Shown: positions 18,504 to 29,452 of the stretch, piece after piece
Layout: each line of letters starts with the position of its first letter
How positions within the stretch are numbered: position 1 is the stretch's first letter
Assembly (NCBI GenBank): GCA_002305315.1
Contig: DBQQ01000006.1
Span: 1-64,000, forward strand
Length of the DNA: 64,000 nt
Reading direction: 5' to 3'
DNA from: Clostridiales bacterium UBA1390
Lineage (GTDB): Bacteria; Bacillota; Clostridia; Lachnospirales; Bianqueaceae
Made by a program: the position numbers and the translations under genes
The notes under the pieces: model-generated
What the model was told of the DNA's origin: nothing
Seen by the model: only the letters and a program-made list of their open reading frames with translations
The model's database searches: none

Positions 18504-18532
18504 TTGACAAAATCAAAACACGAGAATATAAT
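18504..18532 (+). promoter_or_regulatory. Sigma-A promoter of the ZIP transporter gene
   Basis: TTGACA (18504-18509), a 17-base spacer, TATAAT (18527-18532): consensus. A GTTAGT/ACTAAC operator begins eight bases downstream. Confidence 0.85.
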
Positions 18533-18539
18533 GAAAAAA

Positions 18540-18555
18540 GTTAGTAGAAACTAAC
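18540..18555. promoter_or_regulatory. Metal-regulator operator 1 (GTTAGT-AGAA-ACTAAC)
   Basis: Perfect six-base inverted repeat with a four-base spacer over the expected transcription start of the ZIP gene. The same dyad recurs at five other places up to feoB, and a DtxR-family regulator gene closes the cluster, so this is most likely its repression site. Confidence 0.75.
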
Positions 18556-18567
18556 TTAAAGACAGGC

Positions 18568-18645
18568 ATGAATAGGAGTTTCAATAAAGTATATACTATG
18601 AGAGAGGTATATCCAGGTATGGGGGCTTTTAGAAAATATTCATAA
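18568..18645 (+). CDS. Possible 25-residue leader peptide
   Basis: A short frame ATG-AAT-AGG...TAA lies between the operator and the ZIP gene and would encode a basic, aromatic peptide ending MREVYPGMGAFRKYS. The ribosome site is weak (AAAGACAGG one base before the ATG). It may be a chance frame in the 115-base leader; I list it because it fills most of the leader of an iron-regulated gene. Confidence 0.2.
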   Translation: MNRSFNKVYTMREVYPGMGAFRKYS

Positions 18646-18670
18646 AAAAGTATAGAAGGAGAAAATATAG

Positions 18671-19462
18671 ATGCAACCAATCCTTTGGGCGGCAGTGGGA
18701 ACTGGGTTCACATTTTTGATGACAAGCCTGGGTTCGGCCATGGTGTTCTTTTTTAAGAAGAAAGTCAATCCTTCGGCACAGCGGATCTTTCTGGGATTCG
18801 CAGCGGGGGTCATGATCGCGGCATCCGTCTGGAGTCTTCTAATTCCGGCGATCGAGGAGGCGACGGAGGCAGGAAGAATTGGATGGGTTCCGGCTGCGGG
18901 CGGTTTTGCGCTGGGAGTATTGTTTCTGATGGGACTGGATGGATTGCTGCCGCATCTTCATATAGGAGCCAAGCAGCCCGAGGGGCTACACGCTTCCTGG
19001 AGAAGATCCACCCTCCTGATCTTTGCAGTGACGCTCCATAATATTCCAGAAGGAATGGCGGTAGGACTTTCATTCGCGCTAGCGGCACAGCATAGTGGAG
19101 AGTTGGCAACGCTTTCGGCGGCATTTGCTTTGGCATTGGGCATTGGAATTCAGAATTTTCCCGAGGGTGCCGCAATCTCCCTGCCATTGCGGCAAGAAGG
19201 GGCTTCCCGCAGCCGCGCTTTTCTGTATGGCAGCCTTTCGGGGATAGTAGAACCGATTTTCGGAATTCTCGTCGTTATGGTTGCAAGTGGGATTCAACCG
19301 TTAATGCCCTGGTTATTATCCTTTGCCGCGGGCGCCATGATGTTTGTGGTGGTGGAAGAGCTAATACCGGAAGCACACCTGGGGGAACATTCTCATACGG
19401 GAACTTTGGGGGTGATGGCGGGTTTCATGGTGATGATGATACTGGATGTGGCACTGGGATGA
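18671..19462 (+). CDS. ZIP-family divalent metal transporter
   Basis: A 263-residue membrane transporter with eight predicted helices. The metal site motifs of ZIP helices IV and V are intact: HNIPEGMAVGLSFA and NFPEGAAISLPL. A variable loop with HLHIGAKQPEG lies between helices III and IV. It resembles ZupT, which takes up zinc, iron and manganese. GAAGGAG precedes the ATG. The consensus promoter with a GTTAGT/ACTAAC operator places it in the same regulon as FeoAB, so ferrous iron (or manganese) uptake is more likely than dedicated zinc uptake. It stands upstream of the ferrosome-like operon but has its own promoter. Confidence 0.9.
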   Translation: MQPILWAAVGTGFTFLMTSLGSAMVFFFKKKVNPSAQRIFLGFAAGVMIAASVWSLLIPAIEEATEAGRIGWVPAAGGFALGVLFLMGLDGLLPHLHIGAKQPEGLHASWRRSTLLIFAVTLHNIPEGMAVGLSFALAAQHSGELATLSAAFALALGIGIQNFPEGAAISLPLRQEGASRSRAFLYGSLSGIVEPIFGILVVMVASGIQPLMPWLLSFAAGAMMFVVVEELIPEAHLGEHSHTGTLGVMAGFMVMMILDVALG

Positions 19463-19475
19463 AACAGAAAATACA

Positions 19476-19505
19476 TTGACAACGCTGTCCCAAGTCTGCT
19501 ATAAT
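19476..19505 (+). promoter_or_regulatory. Sigma-A promoter of the ferrosome-like operon
   Basis: TTGACA (19476-19481), an 18-base spacer, TATAAT (19500-19505), starting 13 bases after the ZIP stop codon. Confidence 0.8.
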
Positions 19506-19522
19506 AAAAACGTGAGGTTTGC

Positions 19523-19538
19523 GTTAACTAACTATAAC
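19523..19538. promoter_or_regulatory. Degenerate metal-regulator operator 2
   Basis: GTTAAC-TAAC-TATAAC has the same spacing as the GTTAGT-N4-ACTAAC dyad but fewer matching positions. It sits 18 bases after the -10 box, a little further downstream than the other sites, and is flanked by GGTTTG and CAAACC arms (19517-19522 and 19545-19550). Confidence 0.5.
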
Positions 19539-19575
19539 GGTTGACAAACCAAATTCCACGAAGGAGGGATGAGAA

Positions 19576-19656
19576 TTGAAGCAGCATCGATTCTGGGCGG
19601 TGGCCGCAGTGGTATGTTTTATTATGCTTTTTTACACAGGCTACAAACACAAATGA
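19576..19656 (+). CDS. 26-residue single-helix membrane peptide
   Basis: A TTG-started frame too short for most gene callers. GGAGGG sits seven bases before the TTG, and the translated product is MKQHR, then a hydrophobic helix (FWAVAAVVCFIMLFYTG), then YKHK. The basic ends flanking one helix are typical of small bitopic membrane peptides. It is the first gene behind the metal-controlled promoter, followed after 16 bases by the DUF6110-type gene and the FezB-like ATPase. A role in the membrane of an iron-storage organelle or in assisting the pump is inference from position. Confidence 0.7.
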   Translation: MKQHRFWAVAAVVCFIMLFYTGYKHK

Positions 19657-19672
19657 TAGGGAGGAATGAAGG

Positions 19673-19957
19673 ATGATTAACAGTTCGTGTGTGAAGAAGG
19701 CAGGGCTCTTTTTGGGCGGGGTCTTGTTTGGTACGGCAGGGATTAAGCTGTTATCCAGTAAGGATGCGAAGAAAGCTTATGTACATTGTACAGCAGCGGT
19801 TCTCAGGGCTAAGGATTATCTGATGAAAACAAGTACCATCGTGCAGGAAAACATGGAAGATATTCTGGCGGAAGCAGAAGCGATCAACGAGGCCAGATCC
19901 GAAGCGGAGGAAGCGGCGGAGGTTGCGGAGGACGAAACAGGAGAGGTTACAGAGTGA
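19673..19957 (+). CDS. DUF6110-type small membrane protein, ferrosome partner
   Basis: A 94-residue protein. An N-terminal glycine-zipper helix GLFLGGVLFGTAGIKLL (residues 11-27, with GxxxG spacing) is followed by KDAKKAYVHCTAAVLRAKDYL, an amphipathic region, and a strongly acidic C-terminus (residues 58-94, mostly Glu, Asp and Ala). I recognise the pattern as DUF6110. Small GxxxG membrane proteins are encoded beside FezB in known ferrosome (fez) clusters, and the acidic tail could hold iron. The ATG follows GGAGG, and the stop overlaps the GTG start of the ATPase. Which Fez letter it corresponds to cannot be decided here. Confidence 0.8.
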   Translation: MINSSCVKKAGLFLGGVLFGTAGIKLLSSKDAKKAYVHCTAAVLRAKDYLMKTSTIVQENMEDILAEAEAINEARSEAEEAAEVAEDETGEVTE

Positions 19958-22035
19958 GATTTGTTATTCGTCATGAAATGAAGGGGCGTATCCGTGTGCA
20001 TATGGCACAGCCAAAGATGACATACCGTCAGGCGGATACGCTGCTTTATTTTCTGGAAAGTTTGGCATATACGCATACAATCAAAGTATATGAACTGACT
20101 GCGGATGCGGTCATTGAATTTGAACCAGAAAAAAGGGCAGAGCTGATACAGGTGCTAAGGCAGTTTCAGTACGATCATGTGGAGCCGCCGCAGGAATATT
20201 TAGAAAGCTCTACAAGACAGCTAAATGCGGAATATCGGGAGAAACTTTTGGAAAAGTGCTTTCTGCGCTGCTTGCGCCGCTTTTTACCCGCACCGGTTCG
20301 ACATGGATACACGCTTCTGAGAGCAATTCCCTATGTGAGAAAAGGCTTGCAGTGCCTGAGAAGAAGACATGTGGAAGTGCCTGTGTTAGATGCCATGGCC
20401 ATCGGAGTTTCACTATGTCGGCGAGATTTTAATACCGCCAGTTCGGTGATGTTTCTGTTGGGGATTGGTGAGATTCTGGAGGAATGGACACATAAAAAAT
20501 CTGTGGAAGACTTGGCGCGGAGTCTTTCTCTGAAGGCGGAAAAGGTATGGCGTAAGGAAGGCGACGCAGAAAATCTCGTTTCGGTGAAAGAGATTGCGGT
20601 GGGGGATGAGGTAATGATCCATATGAGCGGAGTCATACCTTTCGACGGGATTGTGACGGCCGGAGAGGCCATGATCAATCAGGCTTCCATGACGGGAGAG
20701 AGTCTGCCCGTCAAGAAGATGACAGGGAGTTATGTATATGCCGGTACGGTGGTAGAAGAGGGTGAGATCACATTTCAGGTAAAAGAAGTAGCGGGCTCCA
20801 CGAGGATGGAAAAAATCATACAAATGATTGAGGATTCCGAAAAGCTGAAGTCTGCGGTAGAGAGCCAGGCGGAACATTTAGCGGATCGGCTGGTGCCGTA
20901 TACCTTTCTGGGGACCGGAATTGCATGGTTCTTGACTCGAAATATCACCCGTGCGCTAGCTGTGCTGATGGTGGATTTCTCATGTGCGTTAAAACTAGCA
21001 ATGCCAATCACGGTATTATCGGCGATCCGGGAGGCCAACCAACATAAAATCACAGTAAAGGGAGGCAAATATTTGGAGGCGATGTCCTCGGCTACCACGT
21101 TGGTGTTGGATAAGACCGGTACACTAACGAAAGCGAGACCCACGGTACATTCTGTGATTGCTTTTGGGAATCAGAATCCTGAGGAAATGTTGCGAATGGC
21201 AGCCTGTCTGGAAGAACATTTTCCACATTCTATGGCGAAAGCAGTGGTCCGTGAGGCAAAAAAACGTCATCTGGAACATGAAGAGATGCATTCTAAGGTG
21301 GAGTATATCGTAGCGCATGGTATCGTATCTCATGTGGGAGAACACCGGGTTATTATTGGAAGCCATCATTTTGTCTTCGACGATGAAAAATGCAGGATTC
21401 GTCCGGAAGATCAGGAGCGATTTGAGATGCTTCCCACACAATACTCTCATTTGTACATGGCGATGGATTTCGAGTTGGCAGCGGTGATATGTATAGAAGA
21501 TCCGCTGCGAAAGGAAGCGTCCGATGTCATTAGGGCACTGCGAAAAGAAGGATTTCAGAAGATCGTCATGATGACAGGGGATAGTGAGCGTACGGCAAAA
21601 GCCATTGCAGAAGAAGTCGGTGTCGATACATACTACGCAGAAGTGCTGCCGGAAGATAAAGCAGCCTATATTCAAAAGGAGCGGGAGCATGGACAGACTG
21701 TCGTAATGGTAGGGGATGGAATTAACGATTCTCCGGCGTTATCAGAGGCGAATGTGGGAATCGCCATGCAAGAAGGTGCAGAGATCGCCCGTGAAATCGC
21801 CGATATCACGATCAGTGGAGAATGCTTAATGGAGCTGGTGAATCTGCGGAGACTGAGCCATGCGATGATGAAGCGGATTCAGCAGAATTATCATTCCATA
21901 CTGGGAGTCAACGGGGGTCTGATCCTACTGGGGGTTGCGGGGACTATACAACCTACCACATCAGCTTTTTTCCACAATCTGACTACGTTGATATTGGGGC
22001 TTCGCAGTATGCGGCATTTACTTCCCGAAGAATAG
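19954..22035 (+). CDS. fezB: FezB-like P1B-6 P-type ATPase
   Basis: A 693-residue heavy-metal-type P-type ATPase with reduced membrane helices. The N-terminus (1-75) is a degenerate metal-binding-like domain with an Arg-rich start (RFVIRHEMKGRIRVH) and no CxxC. The actuator carries TGES (247-250). The metal-site helix reads SCALKLAMP (343-351) in place of the CPC of copper pumps, a P1B-6 feature. Asp386 in DKTGTLT is the phosphorylated residue, and GDGINDSPA closes the P domain. P1B-6 pumps of the FezB type load iron into ferrosome organelles in Clostridioides and Desulfovibrio. The GTG start overlaps the DUF6110-type stop (GTGA). Iron as substrate is supported by the operators and neighbours, not proven. 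Confidence 0.85.
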   Translation: MRFVIRHEMKGRIRVHMAQPKMTYRQADTLLYFLESLAYTHTIKVYELTADAVIEFEPEKRAELIQVLRQFQYDHVEPPQEYLESSTRQLNAEYREKLLEKCFLRCLRRFLPAPVRHGYTLLRAIPYVRKGLQCLRRRHVEVPVLDAMAIGVSLCRRDFNTASSVMFLLGIGEILEEWTHKKSVEDLARSLSLKAEKVWRKEGDAENLVSVKEIAVGDEVMIHMSGVIPFDGIVTAGEAMINQASMTGESLPVKKMTGSYVYAGTVVEEGEITFQVKEVAGSTRMEKIIQMIEDSEKLKSAVESQAEHLADRLVPYTFLGTGIAWFLTRNITRALAVLMVDFSCALKLAMPITVLSAIREANQHKITVKGGKYLEAMSSATTLVLDKTGTLTKARPTVHSVIAFGNQNPEEMLRMAACLEEHFPHSMAKAVVREAKKRHLEHEEMHSKVEYIVAHGIVSHVGEHRVIIGSHHFVFDDEKCRIRPEDQERFEMLPTQYSHLYMAMDFELAAVICIEDPLRKEASDVIRALRKEGFQKIVMMTGDSERTAKAIAEEVGVDTYYAEVLPEDKAAYIQKEREHGQTVVMVGDGINDSPALSEANVGIAMQEGAEIAREIADITISGECLMELVNLRRLSHAMMKRIQQNYHSILGVNGGLILLGVAGTIQPTTSAFFHNLTTLILGLRSMRHLLPEE

Positions 22036-22101
22036 AGAAGCGAGAAAAGCAGGTCCATCTTTTTATTTTTGAAAAGTTGGCTTGCTTTTTTAAATTGCCC
22101 C

Positions 22102-22130
22102 TTGACAGCAAAGGTTGGCTATGATATAAC
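22102..22130 (+). promoter_or_regulatory. Promoter of the DUF2325-DUF3793 genes
   Basis: TTGACA (22102-22107), a 17-base spacer, TATAAC (22125-22130), with an operator eight bases downstream. Confidence 0.75.
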
Positions 22131-22137
22131 ATAGATA

Positions 22138-22153
22138 GTTAGTTATAACTAAC
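22138..22153. promoter_or_regulatory. Metal-regulator operator 3 (GTTAGT-TATA-ACTAAC)
   Basis: A 16-bp perfect palindrome covering the expected transcription start, same design and spacing as operator 1. Confidence 0.75.
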
Positions 22154-22181
22154 CAAAAAGGAAGAAGGAAGGGATTCGAGA

Positions 22182-22496
22182 ATGTGTGTCGTCATAGTAG
22201 GCGGAAATGAACGAATGGCATGTCAGTATGAGTCGATTTGTCGAAGCTATGGACATAGAGCGAAGGTGTTCACAAAAGAAAATGGAACACTGAAACGGAA
22301 GATGGGATGTCCGGATTTGCTGATTTTATTCACCAATACGGTGGCCCATAAAATGGTGATCAGTGCTTCGCAGGAGGCGAAACGCAATCGGATCCCGATT
22401 GCACGTGTGCATACCAGCAGCGCCTGCGCGCTGCATCAGCTGTTGGGACGAATTCAGGATGGAGGAGTGGATGGTGTTAGAGAAGTATCTTATTGA
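22182..22496 (+). CDS. DUF2325 protein
   Basis: A 104-residue soluble protein with the DUF2325 pattern: CVVIVGGNERM at the start, a middle GCPDLLILFTNTVAHKM and a C-terminal HTSSACALHQLL. The family is annotated from sequence only; the fold resembles a small Rossmann-like alpha/beta domain. It is preceded by a GAAGGAAGGG site and stands directly behind a metal-regulator operator, so it is probably made when iron is scarce. It overlaps the next gene by 26 bases, indicating coupled translation. Function unknown. Confidence 0.8.
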   Translation: MCVVIVGGNERMACQYESICRSYGHRAKVFTKENGTLKRKMGCPDLLILFTNTVAHKMVISASQEAKRNRIPIARVHTSSACALHQLLGRIQDGGVDGVREVSY

Positions 22497-23019
22497 ACAC
22501 TGTGCTCCAACATTGGCGTCATTGAAAACCGCGAGTCTGATGAGTCTGCCATGGGGAGAGGAGATGGAACACCAGATTTTACGTTATAATGAAGAACTTT
22601 CTGGGAAGGGCGTGGAGATCCTGGTTTTAAGGCAAGAGGGAAATCGCGCGCTAGTTTATGTATATCGAAAGAAGATGCTGGAAGAGGATCTAAAACAAAG
22701 CAGAGTACGCCGAATACTGTGTCAATATGGATATAAGACGAATGGTGTTCAGGAGGTATTAGAGGGCCTGGCAAATCGCTTATCTCTCCAACGGGATTTT
22801 CCGCATGAAATTGGCTTGTTCCTGGGATATCCTCCGGGAGATGTGGAAGGATTCATTCAAAATTGCGGAAGAAACTGCAAATGTTCAGGATGCTGGAAGG
22901 TTTACTGCGATGAATATGAGGCTAGAAGGACGTTTGCTCGATATGCGAAATGCCGGAGGATATATGGAAGGCTGTGGAGGGAAGGACGAAGTATCCGACA
23001 GCTGACAGTGGTCTCGTAG
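22471..23019 (+). CDS. DUF3793 protein
   Basis: A 182-residue soluble protein with the DUF3793 hallmarks: LIEHCAPTLASLKTASLMSL near the start, FPHEIGLFLGYPPGDVEGFI in the middle and, near the C-terminus, the cysteines CSGCWKVYC followed by YAKCRRIYGRL. The Cys cluster (NCGRNCKCSGCWKVYC) could bind a metal or iron-sulfur cluster; this is inference. I chose the ATG at 22471, which has GGAGGAG in front of it and the family-typical N-terminus. It is translationally coupled with the DUF2325 gene in an operator-controlled unit inside the iron cluster. Biochemical role unknown. Confidence 0.78.
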   Translation: MVLEKYLIEHCAPTLASLKTASLMSLPWGEEMEHQILRYNEELSGKGVEILVLRQEGNRALVYVYRKKMLEEDLKQSRVRRILCQYGYKTNGVQEVLEGLANRLSLQRDFPHEIGLFLGYPPGDVEGFIQNCGRNCKCSGCWKVYCDEYEARRTFARYAKCRRIYGRLWREGRSIRQLTVVS

Positions 23020-23047
23020 GATTTGTTAAAAGTTTTTAAATTTATGC

Positions 23048-23076
23048 TTGACAAATGGGTTAGCGAGTGCTAACAT
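23048..23076 (+). promoter_or_regulatory. Promoter of feoA1 and downstream feo genes
   Basis: TTGACA (23048-23053), a 17-base spacer, TAACAT (23071-23076). The -10 box overlaps the right arm of operator 4. Confidence 0.7.
23059..23074. promoter_or_regulatory. Metal-regulator operator 4 (GTTAGC-GAGT-GCTAAC)
   Basis: Perfect six-base arms with four-base spacer, lying between -35 and -10 of the feo promoter. Operator 5 lies 25 bases further on, centre to centre. Confidence 0.75.
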
Positions 23077-23083
23077 ATAGGAG

Positions 23084-23099
23084 GTTAGAGGATTCTAAC
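23084..23099. promoter_or_regulatory. Metal-regulator operator 5 (GTTAGA-GGAT-TCTAAC)
   Basis: Perfect six-base arms at the expected transcription start, giving the feo promoter two repressor sites. Variation at the sixth base of the arm (T, C or A, compensated on the other side) between operators supports selection for the dyad. Confidence 0.75.
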
Positions 23100-23142
23100 C
23101 TAAAACATGAGATTTGTCAATCTTACCGAGAGAGGGATGAGT

Positions 23143-23355
23143 ATGATGCCATTAACGATGGCCAGTGTTGGTGAAGCAAACATAATCCGTAAAATTGGCG
23201 GAAATCCGGAGGTCAGAGCGCACCTCGAGAATCTGGGATTTGTCACGGGCGGAAATGTTACGGTGATTTCTACGATTGGAGGGAATCTGATTGTCAATGT
23301 GAAGGAATCACGGGTAGCGATCAGCCGTGAGATGGCAAATAAGATCATGATTTAA
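23143..23355 (+). CDS. feoA: FeoA domain protein 1
   Basis: A 70-residue SH3-like FeoA protein that helps the ferrous iron transporter FeoB. The sequence runs ASVGEANIIRKIGGNPEVRA..LENLGFVTGGNVTVIST and ends SRVAISREMANKIMI, full length for the family. Three in-frame ATGs lie upstream or at the start; the one at 23143 has GAGGG six bases before it, whereas the ATG at 23107 has no usable site. It is the first gene behind a promoter with two operators, followed by a second FeoA and FeoB. Confidence 0.9.
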   Translation: MMPLTMASVGEANIIRKIGGNPEVRAHLENLGFVTGGNVTVISTIGGNLIVNVKESRVAISREMANKIMI

Positions 23356-23447
23356 CAGACAGGACATGAAGCGGTACACGTTGTAAAGAACAAAGCTTAC
23401 GAACGACTGCTTTATGATATCAGAAACAGGGAAAAGGAGGTTGCGGG

Positions 23448-23669
23448 ATGAAGACTTTGAAGCAGGCGAGGATCGGCGAAACGGTCAGAGTTGTGAAGCT
23501 TCACGGAGAAGGCGCTGTCAAACGTCGTATTATGGATATGGGAATTCCCAAGGGTGTGGATATCTATGTACGCAAGGTAGCCCCTTTGGGAGATCCGATC
23601 GAAGTGACGGTTCGCGGTTATGAACTGTCTTTGCGCAAGGCAGATGCTGAGATGATCGAGGTACAGTGA
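23448..23669 (+). CDS. feoA: FeoA domain protein 2
   Basis: A 73-residue FeoA with typical KTLKQARIGETVRVVKLHG, then VKRRIMDMGIPKGVDIYVRKVAPLGDPIEV and the end LSLRKADAEMIEV. It differs clearly from the first FeoA, so this is an old duplication. AAAGGAGG precedes the ATG. It lies 92 bases after feoA1 and 60 bases before feoB, with a further operator between it and feoB. Confidence 0.93.
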   Translation: MKTLKQARIGETVRVVKLHGEGAVKRRIMDMGIPKGVDIYVRKVAPLGDPIEVTVRGYELSLRKADAEMIEVQ

Positions 23670-23686
23670 TTTTCGTTTACATGAAA

Positions 23687-23702
23687 GTTAGTCAAAACTA
23701 AT
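23687..23702. promoter_or_regulatory. Metal-regulator operator 6 before feoB (GTTAGT-CAAA-ACTAAT)
   Basis: Eleven of twelve arm positions fit the dyad. It is immediately followed by TATAAT at 23703-23708, so feoB probably has its own promoter; a -35 is less clear (TTTACA 23676-23681 would need a 21-base spacer). Confidence 0.65.
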
Positions 23703-23729
23703 TATAATGAGTGGGAAAGGATGAAGAAC

Positions 23730-26141
23730 ATGGGTATTCGAATCGCATTGGCGGGTAATCCCAACAGTGGTAAGACGACATTGTTTAACGCCTTGACAGG
23801 TTCCAATCAATTTGTGGGGAACTGGCCAGGAGTTACGGTGGAGAAGAAAGAAGGAAAACTCAAGAAACACAGTGATGTAACGATTACGGATCTGCCGGGT
23901 ATTTACTCGCTTTCTCCCTACACCTTGGAAGAAGTGGTAGCCAGAAATTATCTGGTGACAGAAAGACCGGACGTGATTCTGAACATCATTGACGGCACGA
24001 ATTTGGAGCGGAATCTGTATTTGACGACACAACTGGTAGAATTGGGGATTCCGGTTGTTGTCGCGGTCAATATGATGGATGTGGTGCGCAAGAATGGAGA
24101 TAAGATCGGGACGCGTGAGCTGTCTCGTCAACTGGGATGCAAGGTGGTGGAGATTTCGGCGCTAAAGGGAGACGGAGTCATGGAAGCGGCAGAGGCCGCG
24201 ATTGGCGCTGCAAACGGGACGAAAACCATTCCGCAGCATTCCTTTAGCGGCCCGGTAGAACATGCCATTGCCCATATTGAAGAGGCGGCTGTTCATAATC
24301 TGCCGCAGGAACAGCAACGCTGGTATGCGATCAAGATTTTTGAACGCGATGAGAAGGTCATGGCGCAGCTTTCTCTCTCTGAATCTGTGAGGCAGCATAT
24401 AGAAGCGGATATTCAGGCTGCCGAGAAGGAGCTGGATGATGATGCGGAGAGTATCATCACGAATGAGAGGTACGTATATATCGCATCCATCATCAAGGGG
24501 TGTTATAAGAAGAAAAACGCGGGACAGATGTCGATCTCGGATAAGATTGATAGAGTGGTGACGAACCGAATTCTGGCATTGCCGATCTTTGCGATTGTCA
24601 TGATCATCGTGTATTATGTCTCGATTACAACGGTCGGTACCTATGCGACGGACTGGGTGAATGATGGCGTATTTGGGGACGGATGGCATTTACTAGGAAT
24701 TGGTTCAGCGGACTATGAGGCGGCGACGGAAGAATATGTGATTCCCGGAGCAACCGTGGAAGCGTTTGAAGCGGCGGCGGAAGATCAGGGAATCGATCCG
24801 ACGACGGCTACAGACCTGACGACGACAGCGACGCTGTATGACGATGAAGGAAATATTGAAGAAGAATTTGAAGTCGATTATACAGCCTATATGGAGGCCG
24901 CAGCGATAGAGGAACCCGATCCCGCTGATTATGGCATTTTTGTACCGAGTATCCCGAATCTTGTGGCAGATGGCCTGGATGCGGTCGGATGCGCAGACTG
25001 GCTCCACGGACTGATTGTCGACGGTATCATTGCAGGTGTGGGCGCTGTCCTTGGCTTCGTACCGCAGATGCTGGTGCTCTTCCTGTTCCTAGCTTTTCTG
25101 GAGAGCTGCGGATATATGGCGCGTATTGCTTTCGTCATGGACCGTATTTTCCGCAAATTTGGATTATCAGGCAAGAGTTTTATTCCGATGCTGATTGGCA
25201 CGGGCTGTGGTGTGCCGGGTATCATGGCTTCTCGTACTATCGAGAATGACCGGGATCGTAAGATGACGATCATGACGACGACCTTTATTCCCTGCGGAGC
25301 GAAACTGCCTATCATTGCTCTGATTGCCGGTGCGTTGTTCGGCAATGCGTGGTGGGTGGCTCCCAGCGCCTATTTTGTAGGCATTGCCGCGATTGTAATC
25401 TCCGGTATTATGCTGAAGAAGACAAAGATGTTTGCGGGAGATCCGGCCCCCTTTGTTATGGAATTGCCGGCTTACCATTGGCCCACCGTGGGGAATGTCC
25501 TGCGTTCTATGTGGGAACGCGGTTGGTCCTTTATTAAGAAAGCAGGTACCGTGATCCTGCTGGCGACGATCCTTGTCTGGTTTACTTCGAACTTTGGCTG
25601 GGCTTCCGACGGCTCTTTCGGTATAGTGGCTATGGATGAAAGTATTCTGGCTGCGATTGGCAACGCGATTGCCTGGATCTTTGCTCCGTTGGGTTGGGGC
25701 CACTGGCAGGAAGCCGTGGCTTGTGTGACCGGCCTGATTGCGAAGGAGAATGTGGTAGGTACATTCGGCGTTCTGTTTGGCGGTTTTGAGGAAGTGGCCG
25801 AGAATGGCTGGCAGGTCTGGAACAATATGCAGGCTGTCTTTACACCGTTGTCCGCGTATTCCTTCCTGGTCTTCAATCTGCTGTGCGCTCCCTGTTTCGC
25901 GGCGATTGGCGCAATCAAGCGGGAGATGAACAATGCAAAGTGGACTTGGTTTGCCATCGGGTATCAGTGCGTATTTGCTTATGTGGTTTCATTCATCATC
26001 TACCAGGTAGGTTCCTTCTTTACCGGAAATGGCAATTTGATTGGAGGGCTGGTTGCCCTGGTTCTGATCGCGCTGATTGTATACATGTTAGTGCGTCCCG
26101 CTAAACAGGACAATAAGATGACGGTGAAGGTCAGAGTTTGA
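23730..26141 (+). CDS. feoB: Ferrous iron transport protein B
   Basis: An 803-residue GTPase-coupled ferrous iron transporter in the cytoplasmic membrane. The N-terminal G domain has G1 GNPNSGKTT, switch NWPGVTVEKKEG, G3 DLPGIYS and G4 NMMD. A helical GDI domain follows (to about residue 270), then the polytopic membrane part with Gate motifs (LVLFLFLAFLESCGYMARIAF, GTGCGVPGIMASRT, LIAKENVVGTFGVLFGG). An unusual acidic, Thr- and Ala-rich insert of about 100 residues follows the first helix and should face outside. The start at 23730 has AAAGG nine bases upstream; the ATG at 23721 abuts that site. It ends the operator-controlled feo block. Confidence 0.95.
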   Translation: MGIRIALAGNPNSGKTTLFNALTGSNQFVGNWPGVTVEKKEGKLKKHSDVTITDLPGIYSLSPYTLEEVVARNYLVTERPDVILNIIDGTNLERNLYLTTQLVELGIPVVVAVNMMDVVRKNGDKIGTRELSRQLGCKVVEISALKGDGVMEAAEAAIGAANGTKTIPQHSFSGPVEHAIAHIEEAAVHNLPQEQQRWYAIKIFERDEKVMAQLSLSESVRQHIEADIQAAEKELDDDAESIITNERYVYIASIIKGCYKKKNAGQMSISDKIDRVVTNRILALPIFAIVMIIVYYVSITTVGTYATDWVNDGVFGDGWHLLGIGSADYEAATEEYVIPGATVEAFEAAAEDQGIDPTTATDLTTTATLYDDEGNIEEEFEVDYTAYMEAAAIEEPDPADYGIFVPSIPNLVADGLDAVGCADWLHGLIVDGIIAGVGAVLGFVPQMLVLFLFLAFLESCGYMARIAFVMDRIFRKFGLSGKSFIPMLIGTGCGVPGIMASRTIENDRDRKMTIMTTTFIPCGAKLPIIALIAGALFGNAWWVAPSAYFVGIAAIVISGIMLKKTKMFAGDPAPFVMELPAYHWPTVGNVLRSMWERGWSFIKKAGTVILLATILVWFTSNFGWASDGSFGIVAMDESILAAIGNAIAWIFAPLGWGHWQEAVACVTGLIAKENVVGTFGVLFGGFEEVAENGWQVWNNMQAVFTPLSAYSFLVFNLLCAPCFAAIGAIKREMNNAKWTWFAIGYQCVFAYVVSFIIYQVGSFFTGNGNLIGGLVALVLIALIVYMLVRPAKQDNKMTVKVRV

Positions 26142-26152
26142 TCGCGCAGATG

Positions 26153-26192
26153 AAGATGACAGAATGCGAAAGAATCTGTATTCTGTCATCTT
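26153..26192 (+). terminator. Hairpin between feoB and the DtxR-family gene
   Basis: A 13-bp perfect stem (AAGATGACAGAAT 26153-26165 with ATTCTGTCATCTT 26180-26192). It lacks a T-run, so it may be a partial terminator or a processing/attenuation structure that lowers regulator expression relative to FeoB. Confidence 0.5.
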
Positions 26193-26210
26193 GGGAACGG
26201 GAGGTGGAAA

Positions 26211-26588
26211 ATGCTGTTGACAGCCATTCAGATCAAATATATACGTGTACTGCATCGGCTGCAGGATGTGCAGAGCGTGAAATTGGCAGATGTAGCGGAA
26301 GTGTTGCATGTCAGCAAACCGAGTGTACATAATATGTTTCAGAAGCTGAAACGATTTGGTCTGATTGTACAGGACGAAAAGGGATATTCACGATTGACTG
26401 AGCTGGGCAAGGAAACAGCCAGGCAATACGAGGAGGAGTATACGATTCTGTTTTCGTTCTTGACAGAGATTTTGCATTTGGAGAAAGAAATAGCCCAGGA
26501 AAACGCGATCGCGTTGATGGGAAGTGAGAAATGTGGCGCGCAGGACTTGTGTCACAGTATTGAAAAGTTCAGGGAGAAAATCGCCTGA
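26211..26588 (+). CDS. DtxR/MntR-family metal-dependent repressor
   Basis: A 125-residue regulator. The N-terminal winged helix (1-65: IQIKYIRVLHRLQDVQSVKLADVAEVLHVSKPSVHNMFQKL) and a helical dimerisation/metal domain (about 66-125: LTEILHLEKEIAQENAIAL..CHSIEKF) are those of DtxR/IdeR/MntR without the SH3-like third domain. GGGAGGTGG precedes the ATG. It ends the iron cluster and is the obvious reader of the six GTTAGNNNNNNCTAAC sites upstream; its own gene has no such site and is read through from feoB past a hairpin. Iron versus manganese specificity is not certain, but the target genes point to iron. Confidence 0.88.
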   Translation: MLLTAIQIKYIRVLHRLQDVQSVKLADVAEVLHVSKPSVHNMFQKLKRFGLIVQDEKGYSRLTELGKETARQYEEEYTILFSFLTEILHLEKEIAQENAIALMGSEKCGAQDLCHSIEKFREKIA

Positions 26589-26605
26589 TAGAAAGGGGGA
26601 TTTGT

Positions 26606-26731
26606 ATGTGGACGGCAATCATTGGAGCATGGATCGTATTGGCAGCTGTGTTTGCAATTCGTTATTATTGCAGGAAAAAGATCTATAAAAAAACAAAAAG
26701 AAGGTATCCGATGGATGCGCGTCAAAAATAG
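26606..26731 (+). CDS. 41-residue single-helix membrane protein
   Basis: A small protein: N-terminal helix MWTAIIGAWIVLAAVFAIRY, then a basic tail with CRKKIYKKTKRRYP. GAAAGGGGG precedes the ATG, which follows the regulator by 17 bases. Position and size recall the FeoB-associated small membrane proteins, but those have a cysteine cluster while this one has a single Cys. A terminator follows. It is the last gene of the iron cluster. Confidence 0.65.
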   Translation: MWTAIIGAWIVLAAVFAIRYYCRKKIYKKTKRRYPMDARQK

Positions 26732-26746
26732 GATCCTTCAAAAAAG

Positions 26747-26780
26747 AGAGTTCTCAAAAAAAACTGAGAACTCTTTTTCC
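26747..26780 (+). terminator. Terminator of the iron cluster
   Basis: AGAGTTCTCA (26747-26756) pairs with TGAGAACTCT (26765-26774), followed by TTTTCC. Confidence 0.88.
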
Positions 26781-26890: not shown

Positions 26891-29452
26891 ATGGAGGAGA
26901 CAAGGTCTGCAGCGATGGAGGAGTCTGTCAAATCAGATTCTTGCCAGGTCAGAGAAGTCGTCCAGAAGGAGAATGGCGGACATAGAAGAAAAAAGAAGAT
27001 GCCAGGTAATATGGATTGGTTTGGGATTTGTGATGACAGACATTTATTATTAAAGAGTTTCTGTATCGCACTGGTAACGGCGATTGTGATGTTTCTGCCC
27101 TCAATTATTTGGGATGAGGGCTATTTCTTGTTCTTAGGAGATTTTAATTCTCAGCAGGTGCCATTTTATAAGTTGGCGCATCAGGCGGTACGAGAGGGAA
27201 ACTGGGGATGGAACTGGTATACCGATCTGGGAGCCAATTTTATAGGATCCTATACATTCTATCTGCTGGGCAGTCCGTTTTTTTGGCTGACGCTGCCGTT
27301 TCCCAATGATTGGGTACCGTATTTGATGGGGCCGCTGTTGATGCTGAAGTATGCGTCGATGTCCATGACAGCCACAGCCTGGCTGCGCCGGTATGTGAAG
27401 CATGGTGAGTTTGCGGTCTTGGGCGGGCTTTTATATGCGTTCTCGGGCTATACGATGTACAATACCTTCTTCAATCATTTTCTGGATGTGATGGTATTCT
27501 TCCCGTTGATGCTGATTGGCATGGATGAATTGGTGGAGAATAATACCCGGGGGGTATTTGCGTTGTCTGTAGCGTTGTGCGCCGTGGTCAACTATGTGTT
27601 TTTTGCGGGAGAAGCCGTCTTCATGGTTCTATACTATGTCATGAAGGTGTGGATGAAAGGATATAAAACGGATTGGAAGCGATTTATCGCGGTAGCGGTA
27701 GAGGCGGTGCTGGGATTTCTGATCAGTGCCTTCTTTGTGCTGCCTTCCTTGATCGTGATGCTTCAGAATCCTAGATCCAGTGGATTTCTAACAGGATATG
27801 ATTTTTGGATTTATGATTATGAACGAAAACCTTGGGTAATCCTTTTAACGTTCTTTTTCCCGCCGGAATTGCCTTCACAGCCGATCATGATTACCGATTC
27901 ATATATGCGGTGGACGTCTGTACAGGCGTATATACCGATTTTCAGCATGTGCGGGGTTATTGCTTTTGTGAGAGAGCAGCGAAAACACTGGTTAAAAAAC
28001 TTTATAGTACTGCTTGTGATCATGGCCTTCATTCCAGGGCTTAACAGTATGTTCACCATGATGAATGATTCGTATTATGCAAGGTGGTATTTCATGCTGG
28101 TTCTCATGTTAGTCACAGCCACAGTAATCCAGTTGGATCAGGGAAGTCCGGAACAATTGCGTTCAGGACTGAAAATCACGGCCGTTTTCACATTGATTGT
28201 CATAGCGGCGATGTTCCTGACGCCGGAGATCGAAACCGTGCAGACGGAAGTGCCGGTGGAAGTGGAGGACGAATCTGGCAATATTACCATTGAAATGCAG
28301 GAAGAAGAGACGGAAGTCCTGAGTCTGGGAATCTACAATAAGACGTTTACGATTCCGTTTATCATCATGTCAGTGACTTGCATTGTATCGCTATATGCAT
28401 TATATCGGATTCTGGTTCATCAGAAAATACGGCCTAAGTTATTCGCCAATTATTTATTGATCGCGGTTTGTATTTTTGGTATGCTTTATGGGAACTATTA
28501 TATCATATACGGAAAAACAAGGTCTTTCGATACGAAAGGATATATTATTCCAGACGCGATACAGGGGCAGGATAAGATCTATTTTCCAGAGACAGAGCAG
28601 TTTTTCCGTATTGATAACGACGACTCCTTTATCAATATGGGGATGTTCTGGCAGGGACCAGATATGCATGCGTTCCACAGTATTGTTCCGGTATCCATTA
28701 TGGACTATTACGAGTATATCGGCGATAACCGTGATGTCAATTCCAAGATGGACTACAGTAACTACGCATCCAGATCTCTGTTTTCTGTGAAGTACTTCTG
28801 CGATAGAATCGACTATACGGCAGATGTGTTTGGAGATCGTTATGCCGAGAATCCGGACACGAAGATGCCTGGATATACCTATCGTTATGATATGGCTGGT
28901 TTTGCGGTCTGGGAGAATGATAACTATATTCCTATGGGATTTACGTATGACAGCTATATCTTGCAGTCCACGGCGGATCAGATCAGTGTCAGTCTGCGAG
29001 ATGAGCTAATGTTGAAGGCATTAATTCTGACGGATGAACAGGCAGAGAAATATGGAGATCTTTTAGAAGAGGCAGATACCAGCCAGTTTAGTTATACGGA
29101 AGAAGCCTATGACAGAGATTGTGATGAACGCGCGGCAGAGTCGGCGGATACGTTCAGTTATGATAATACAGGCTTTACCGCACACATTACCCTAGAGGAA
29201 GACAATCTTGTATTTTTCAGTGTCCCTTACGAGGAAGGATGGACGGCTACCGTGAACGGTGAACCAGTGGATGTGGAGAAAGTACAGATTGGGTTCATGG
29301 CGGTGAAAGCGTCGGCTGGAGACAATGTGATTCAGTTTTACTACGAGACACCAGGGCTGCATACAGGAATCATGATCAGTATAGGTGCAGCAGCGGTGTT
29401 GGCCGCCTACTGGGTGGTCAGCAGCATGTATAAGAGGAGACATGCAGAATGA
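26891..29452 (+). CDS. yfhO: YfhO-family membrane glycosyltransferase
   Basis: An 853-residue polytopic protein. A hydrophilic N-terminal 55 residues precede about 12 membrane helices; the first external loop has FLGDFNSQQVPFYKLAHQ and WNWYTDLGANFIGSY, the acidic/aromatic catalytic region of YfhO GT-C enzymes. The long C-terminal extracellular domain ends in EEGWTATVNGEPVDVEKV before a last helix. In Bacillus, YfhO transfers sugars from lipid carriers to lipoteichoic acid together with a GtrA-type flippase and the CsbB glycosyltransferase. Here GtrA follows with an ATGA overlap, and no CsbB-like gene is in the window. GGGGAGAG is the ribosome site. Confidence 0.85.
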   Translation: MEETRSAAMEESVKSDSCQVREVVQKENGGHRRKKKMPGNMDWFGICDDRHLLLKSFCIALVTAIVMFLPSIIWDEGYFLFLGDFNSQQVPFYKLAHQAVREGNWGWNWYTDLGANFIGSYTFYLLGSPFFWLTLPFPNDWVPYLMGPLLMLKYASMSMTATAWLRRYVKHGEFAVLGGLLYAFSGYTMYNTFFNHFLDVMVFFPLMLIGMDELVENNTRGVFALSVALCAVVNYVFFAGEAVFMVLYYVMKVWMKGYKTDWKRFIAVAVEAVLGFLISAFFVLPSLIVMLQNPRSSGFLTGYDFWIYDYERKPWVILLTFFFPPELPSQPIMITDSYMRWTSVQAYIPIFSMCGVIAFVREQRKHWLKNFIVLLVIMAFIPGLNSMFTMMNDSYYARWYFMLVLMLVTATVIQLDQGSPEQLRSGLKITAVFTLIVIAAMFLTPEIETVQTEVPVEVEDESGNITIEMQEEETEVLSLGIYNKTFTIPFIIMSVTCIVSLYALYRILVHQKIRPKLFANYLLIAVCIFGMLYGNYYIIYGKTRSFDTKGYIIPDAIQGQDKIYFPETEQFFRIDNDDSFINMGMFWQGPDMHAFHSIVPVSIMDYYEYIGDNRDVNSKMDYSNYASRSLFSVKYFCDRIDYTADVFGDRYAENPDTKMPGYTYRYDMAGFAVWENDNYIPMGFTYDSYILQSTADQISVSLRDELMLKALILTDEQAEKYGDLLEEADTSQFSYTEEAYDRDCDERAAESADTFSYDNTGFTAHITLEEDNLVFFSVPYEEGWTATVNGEPVDVEKVQIGFMAVKASAGDNVIQFYYETPGLHTGIMISIGAAAVLAAYWVVSSMYKRRHAE

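Follow-up and report, generated by a model that had tools for sequence, protein, structure and literature searches.

Judging from its sequence, a gene block of Clostridiales bacterium UBA1390 belongs to a genome-wide iron regulon of the DtxR type, which is a known kind of regulon. The block lies at 18504-26731 of a 64,000-nucleotide stretch (the window) of contig DBQQ01000006.1 (assembly GCA_002305315.1) and encodes a ZIP-family transporter, a DUF6110 protein with a P1B-type ATPase, DUF2325 and DUF3793 proteins, FeoA, and FeoB. Its predicted operator is the palindrome GTTAG-N6-CTAAC. The iron sensor is probably an intact second DtxR-family protein encoded on another contig (C18, locus L032), and not the DtxR-like protein encoded after feoB at 26211, which has lost its metal ligands. 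If so, an iron regulon with both an operator and a candidate sensor exists in a part of the Clostridia where control by Fur is usually assumed, and the DUF6110/ATPase unit and two proteins of unknown function (DUF2325 and DUF3793) come under predicted iron control. We found no description of the operator or of the metal-blind paralogue in the literature searched, whose coverage did not extend to most subscription papers or to databases such as RegPrecise.

Operators in the block

We searched for GTTAG-N6-CTAAC, with the reversed pattern as a control and with 100 shuffles to give the chance level in the window. The window contains four perfect sites (at 18540, 22138, 23059, and 23084), versus none in the shuffles. 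With up to one mismatch there are six sites, versus a shuffle mean of 0.59 and a largest value of 3. Chance is excluded for both sets. With up to two mismatches, there are 13 sites and 13.3 are expected; this is the chance level, so degenerate sites cannot be called from the pattern alone, and we set these counts aside as evidence. A preliminary description of this DNA had reported perfect arms at the same four positions and one mismatch at 23687, and the pattern search confirmed all five. It had also placed a more degenerate site at 19523. A site is present there, but that register has two mismatches, and the overlapping register at 19517 (GTTTGCGTTAACTAAC) is better, with just one; the same letters are found in a locus from the same genus (L095, position 227).

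The sites were said to lie at or near the -10 box or the transcription start, and we did find promoters at 18540, 19517, 23059, and 23687. The sites at 18540 and 19517 are directly 3' of perfect TTGACA/TATAAT promoters, the site at 23059 overlaps a -10-like box (promoter 23048-23076), and the site at 23687 sits between the two boxes of a promoter at 23681-23708. These are the usual places for a repressor to bind. The features of the block are as follows:

18504..18532, + strand: promoter of the ZIP gene, TTGACA-17-TATAAT (12/12 consensus letters)
18540..18555, no strand: predicted operator, perfect, just 3' of the -10 box (pattern and shuffles)
18671..19462, + strand: ZIP-family metal transporter (PF02535, 79.7 bits)
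19476..19505, + strand: promoter of the DUF6110/ATPase unit, TTGACA-18-TATAAT (12/12 consensus letters)
19517..19532, no strand: predicted operator, one mismatch (pattern; same letters in L095)
19673..19957, + strand: DUF6110 protein, a small membrane-associated partner (PF19605, 118.9 bits), perhaps with a ferrosome-like role
19954..22035, + strand: heavy-metal P1B-type ATPase (PF00122; TIGR01525, 497 bits)
22138..22153, no strand: predicted operator, perfect (pattern and shuffles)
22182..22496, + strand: DUF2325 protein (PF10087, 108.9 bits)
22471..23019, + strand: DUF3793 protein (PF12672, 206.8 bits); start chosen by eye, at the ATG closest to the Pfam match (the automatically called open reading frame begins at 22363)
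23059..23074, no strand: predicted operator, perfect, overlapping the -10 box of feo (pattern and promoter reading)
23084..23099, no strand: predicted operator, perfect, second feo site (pattern and shuffles)
23107..23355, + strand: FeoA, first copy (PF04023, 56.1 bits)
23448..23669, + strand: FeoA, second copy (PF04023, 74.1 bits)
23687..23702, no strand: predicted operator, one mismatch, in the promoter spacer before feoB (pattern)
23721..26141, + strand: FeoB (TIGR00437, 544 bits; PF02421)
26211..26588, + strand: metal-blind protein of DtxR/MntR fold, the feo-linked paralogue (PF01325; fold; ligand positions lost)
26606..26731, + strand: 41-amino-acid membrane peptide with a single helix (by eye)
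26743..26778, + strand: terminator-like stem of 14 pairs and T run, which ends the block

Between the operator at 19517 and the DUF6110 gene, there is also a short frame that starts with TTG and encodes about 26 residues, including a single hydrophobic stretch (19576-19656). The peptide at 26606-26731 is at the usual place of the small FeoB-associated protein and, by eye, is not Cys-rich here.

Like the ferrosome (fez) genes of Clostridioides difficile (PMC12574912), the DUF6110/ATPase unit pairs the gene of a P1B-type ATPase with that of a small partner, under the control (predicted here) of an iron regulator. The likeness lies in the presence of the DUF6110 and ATPase families. The fez genes are repressed by Fur, whereas the predicted operator here is of the DtxR type; the unit, if it is ferrosome-like, would therefore be under another regulator.

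Sites across the genome and in relatives

The assembly (G000; 2.82 Mb, 61 contigs, 96.3% complete) has 10 perfect sites, versus 0.72 expected from first-order composition. All 10 are upstream of a gene start, and seven precede metal, flavodoxin, or AhpC genes: ZIP (one site), feo (two), a flavodoxin followed by FecCD, ABC (ATP-binding cassette), and periplasmic-binding (Peripla_BP_2) genes (two), another flavodoxin (one), and AhpC followed by its reductase (one). The others precede DUF2325/DUF3793 (one site) and pairs of ABC half-transporters with no assigned substrate (two). The prediction that hits across the genome would fall before iron genes thus holds up: the targets are mostly metal or iron-sparing genes and are not scattered. 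The part of the preliminary description that had one sensor coordinating the regulon stands in that a single operator family precedes the genes for iron uptake, the ferrosome-like DUF6110/ATPase unit, and DUF2325/DUF3793; the part in which the block carries its own sensor is not supported.

Another 12 sites in the genome have one mismatch. Six are at promoters: two at one ABC pair, those at 19517 and 23687, one at a third ABC pair, and one on contig C47 before a small Cys-rich open reading frame resembling FeoB-associated proteins. We set aside the other six, which are not at the promoters of iron genes. One of these is within a gene (C14), and two have no clear target (C50 and C56). The remaining three (C4:36302, C26:22958, and C55:59; loci L021, L023, and L026) lie within a common repeat close to contig ends, inverted in one case, and seem to have no part in the regulon. 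When one mismatch is allowed, there are 22 sites in the genome versus 76 for the reversed control, but base composition makes the control about 10 times more expected (7.7 versus 0.72 perfect sites), so the genome-wide case rests on the perfect sites.

Written out further, the palindrome is R-GTTAGY-N4-RCTAAC-Y. It overlaps or directly follows the -10 box of the metal-uptake, DUF6110/ATPase, DUF2325/DUF3793, and feo units, and is placed in the same way at the flavodoxin, siderophore-type ABC, ABC-pair, and AhpC units. In a set of 124 distinct perfect sites, position -1 of the flank is R (A.47, G.40), position 6 is Y, and the fifth base of the half-site, in the TTAGY frame, is C (.33), T (.45), A (.19), or G (.03).

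We compared sets of 19 genomes from the family, 196 from the order, and 291 from the class. The family genomes contain 107 perfect sites (versus 18 for the control). In the order, 156 genomes have a perfect site, with 709 sites in total (control, 401), and in the class 200 genomes have one, a count that includes chance hits. Several distant Clostridia are rich in perfect sites (G229, 16 versus 0 for the control; G278, 18 versus 3; G418, 19 versus 4), which suggests that the operator may extend beyond the order.

To read the neighborhoods of sites in 11 genomes, we used 50 stretches, 43 of which were fetched by place; the site G012:C289 and the sites of G006, G010, and G022-G026 were left out. 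Genes were named by eye, from their similarity to proteins that had been scanned with Pfam and NCBIfam. The genes 3' of perfect sites include ABC pairs (10 site-gene pairs in seven genomes), FeoA, FeoB, DUF2325, DUF3793, ZIP, and dtxR. Sixteen perfect sites were left without a gene by our picking of open reading frames, including feoA and AhpC sites that were assigned separately. By eye, the genes behind some of the perfect sites have no obvious connection to iron; examples are an aromatic-amino-acid gene in G004 (L189), an enolase-superfamily gene in G012 (L166), and a methyltransferase gene in G011 (L175).

In three relatives, a small heavy-metal-associated protein with the motif GMMCGMC, which has no counterpart in the window, is encoded beside feo or ZIP behind the same operator (G007, L159 354-638; G009, L164; G021, L172).

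The candidate sensor

The protein on contig C18 is an intact member of the DtxR family: both domains are above their cutoffs (PF01325, 46.2 versus 26 bits; PF02742, 62.2 versus 27 bits), and its sequence matches in the PDB are 2h09 and 1on1. It carries the C-x-x-E-H motif of the DtxR type (DACRIEH), and an orthologue aligns to ACRWEH of DtxR. Where MntR has E99, it has C, as in DtxR. The residues H76, C98, E101, and H102 are invariant in 15 orthologues of this type.

The distribution of the operator also points to this protein. The 120 order genomes with a C18-type DtxR (E <= 1e-40) contain 586 perfect sites, versus 211 for the control; the 76 genomes without one contain 123, versus 190. Because these genomes are related and not independent, the P value of 1e-11 for the association is indicative at most. 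In 7 of the 30 best-scoring dtxR loci, a perfect site lies no more than 350 bp upstream of the gene; none of the 30 has a control site there. Three further perfect sites upstream of dtxR are in G005, G022, and G023. The gene is divergent from feoA, with perfect sites between them, in G005, G012, G022, G023, and G098, while in G008 and G011 it is apart from feo and has a site to itself, pointing to autoregulation in these two genomes.

Several observations weigh against this assignment. In UBA1390 itself, the 9.5-kb contig that carries the C18 dtxR has neither a perfect nor a one-mismatch site, and we set autoregulation in this genome aside. In some of the loci where dtxR faces feo, the upstream site may serve feo alone. 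Four genomes (G004, G021, G009, and G071) lack a C18-type gene even when the threshold is relaxed to E 1e-3 and yet contain nine, six, five, and four perfect sites, respectively, versus zero for the controls. In G004 and G021, contigs break 405 and 87 bp from a transketolase gene, and in G011 and G008 the transketolase gene and dtxR are about 2 kb apart, so an assembly gap is likely in G004 and G021; in G009, the contig ends in a repeat. Conversely, several genomes with a C18-type gene have no perfect site. We fetched 12 of these and considered whether their recognition helix was altered, but by eye there was no telling change in the 11 readable genes.

A DtxR-family reader fits both the geometry of the operator and the comparative data. 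According to PMC8464063, IdeR binds TTAGGTTAGSCTAACCTAA as two dimers, a 14-bp form for a single dimer has been proposed (TTAGGNNNNCCTAA), and Ser37, Pro39, Thr40, and Gln43 contact the bases. Our regulon shares with IdeR and DtxR of Actinobacteria the TTAG half-site, the arm spacing of the 14-bp form TTAGG-N4-CCTAA, and iron genes as targets, and the candidate sensor shares their Fe-type C-x-x-E-H ligands. The geometry of the operator is equal, but its fifth base is Y instead of G; also, the candidate is a one-domain protein (about 125-135 amino acids) with no SH3-like domain, and its host is a member of the Clostridia. It has this one-domain architecture in common with MntR, the manganese sensor of Bacillus subtilis and Escherichia coli, as well as a 16-bp operator with a 6-4-6 layout. 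It differs from MntR by the C in place of E99, and the targets are iron genes instead of manganese transporters. Under the mechanism we propose, a homodimer of the C18 protein, with Fe(II) held by H and the C-x-x-E-H residues, would occupy the palindrome when Fe(II) is plentiful and exclude RNA polymerase. When iron is low, the metal would be lost and the dimer would release the DNA, so that uptake, iron-sparing, and redox genes would come on together.

A Fur-family protein or another regulator might read the palindrome instead, which we consider quite unlikely. AhpC and its flavoprotein reductase are usual targets of PerR, and in this genome these genes carry the predicted iron operator (C24:390, L018). 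The genome also encodes one Fur-family protein above the cutoff (C49, 90.3 bits). However, the palindrome is unlike the Fur box (GATAATGATAATCATTATC) and the PerR box (TTATAATNATTATAA), and we found no tie between the Fur gene and the sites, although the presence of Fur was not compared with motif counts. The repression of the C. difficile ferrosome genes by Fur (PMC12574912) also speaks for this alternative.

It is highly improbable that the palindromes are RNA hairpins in 5' leaders and not DNA operators. Several sites are at or after the expected transcription start, and the preliminary description had noted that the sixth arm base varies with compensation on the other side. This does hold for all four perfect sites in the window and for 7 of the 10 in the genome, but the effect is weak over the 124 distinct sites (54 self-complementary versus 43.2 expected, P = 0.016). 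The stems would have just five or six pairs, and the sites at 23687 (between the -35 and -10 boxes) and 23059 (over the -10 box) would not be wholly transcribed from that promoter. Nor is there the variation in kind that a stem would permit among the five letters of the arm, which is a limited point, as the search fixes those letters.

As to whether the feo-linked protein at 26211 is itself the sensor and repressor, this seems very unlikely. Its place at the end of the block would suggest it, and the preliminary description had taken it for the regulon's own DtxR-family regulator. Its ligand positions are lost, though, and clear orthologues were found in just 4 of the 196 order genomes (plus two more divergent ones, by eye), while 156 of those genomes have perfect sites. 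A regulator that adjoins a regulon need not be its sensor.

The DtxR-fold protein after feoB

The assignment of the 26211 gene to the DtxR family stands for the winged helix, which is of the DtxR type (PF01325, 35.6 versus 26 bits), but PF02742, the domain for metal binding and dimerization, is below its cutoff (19.6 versus 27 bits). The 125-amino-acid protein has the full MntR/DtxR fold with dimerization helices. The metal ligands of DtxR/MntR metalloregulators are H, C/E-x-x-E-H, and an N-terminal D/M and E. Residues N7, E10, H76, C98, and H102 of the C18 protein are replaced by K, R, Y, I, and K, and the equivalent of E101 is retained solely through a three-residue insertion; with the ligands lost, the protein is very unlikely to be the iron sensor. 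In an alignment of 30 of its 47 homologues, the E-H motif is absent from 18, and the 12 with the motif are more distant and canonical-like.

Both paralogues have S-K-P-S where the alignment has S-G-P-T. Since the DNA-reading Ser and Pro of the recognition helix and the dimerization helices are retained, the 26211 protein could recognize these operators too, or form a pair with the sensor. That it is a metal-independent accessory that modulates the response in this way is the likeliest reading, plausible from its sequence, if just short of probable. More tentatively, and we think this somewhat unlikely, the metal-blind DtxR of some Clostridia feo operons might be a full-length, selected fold that acts as an iron-independent antagonist or partner at TTAGY-N4-RCTAA. 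If this is true, the antagonist or partner would be produced solely when feo is on, which would build a feedback into the iron response; we know of no such feedback in the described DtxR regulons. In any case, the paralogue is a natural test of a DtxR without metal.

A FeoC-like role at FeoB, the next likeliest reading, is doubtful. FeoC too is a small winged-helix protein. In the 26211 protein we found no FeoC match in Pfam or NCBIfam at E 0.01 and no Cys cluster. As in feoABC operons (PMC8749426), the gene of a small protein follows feoB within a single transcription unit; the 26211 protein differs in being a 125-amino-acid DtxR/MntR fold with dimerization helices and no Cys motif.

We read the 30 best loci of the metal-blind gene in relatives. 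One-mismatch sites lie over its start codon in L101 and in L098/L159, which are the same locus, and no such site is found in the window, L095, L096, L097, L099, L100, or L199. We took them to be chance matches, as they fall on the ribosome-binding site and start codon and are absent elsewhere. The small ligand-less family recurs after feoB in several Clostridia (the window, L098, L099, L100, L101, and L199). In L097, a perfect site separates the gene from an ABC pair that comes after it. The metal-blind gene is followed by a gene for a large membrane protein in the window (26891-29452) and also in L096/L062, and as no feo gene adjoins the pair in L096/L062, it keeps this neighborhood without feo.
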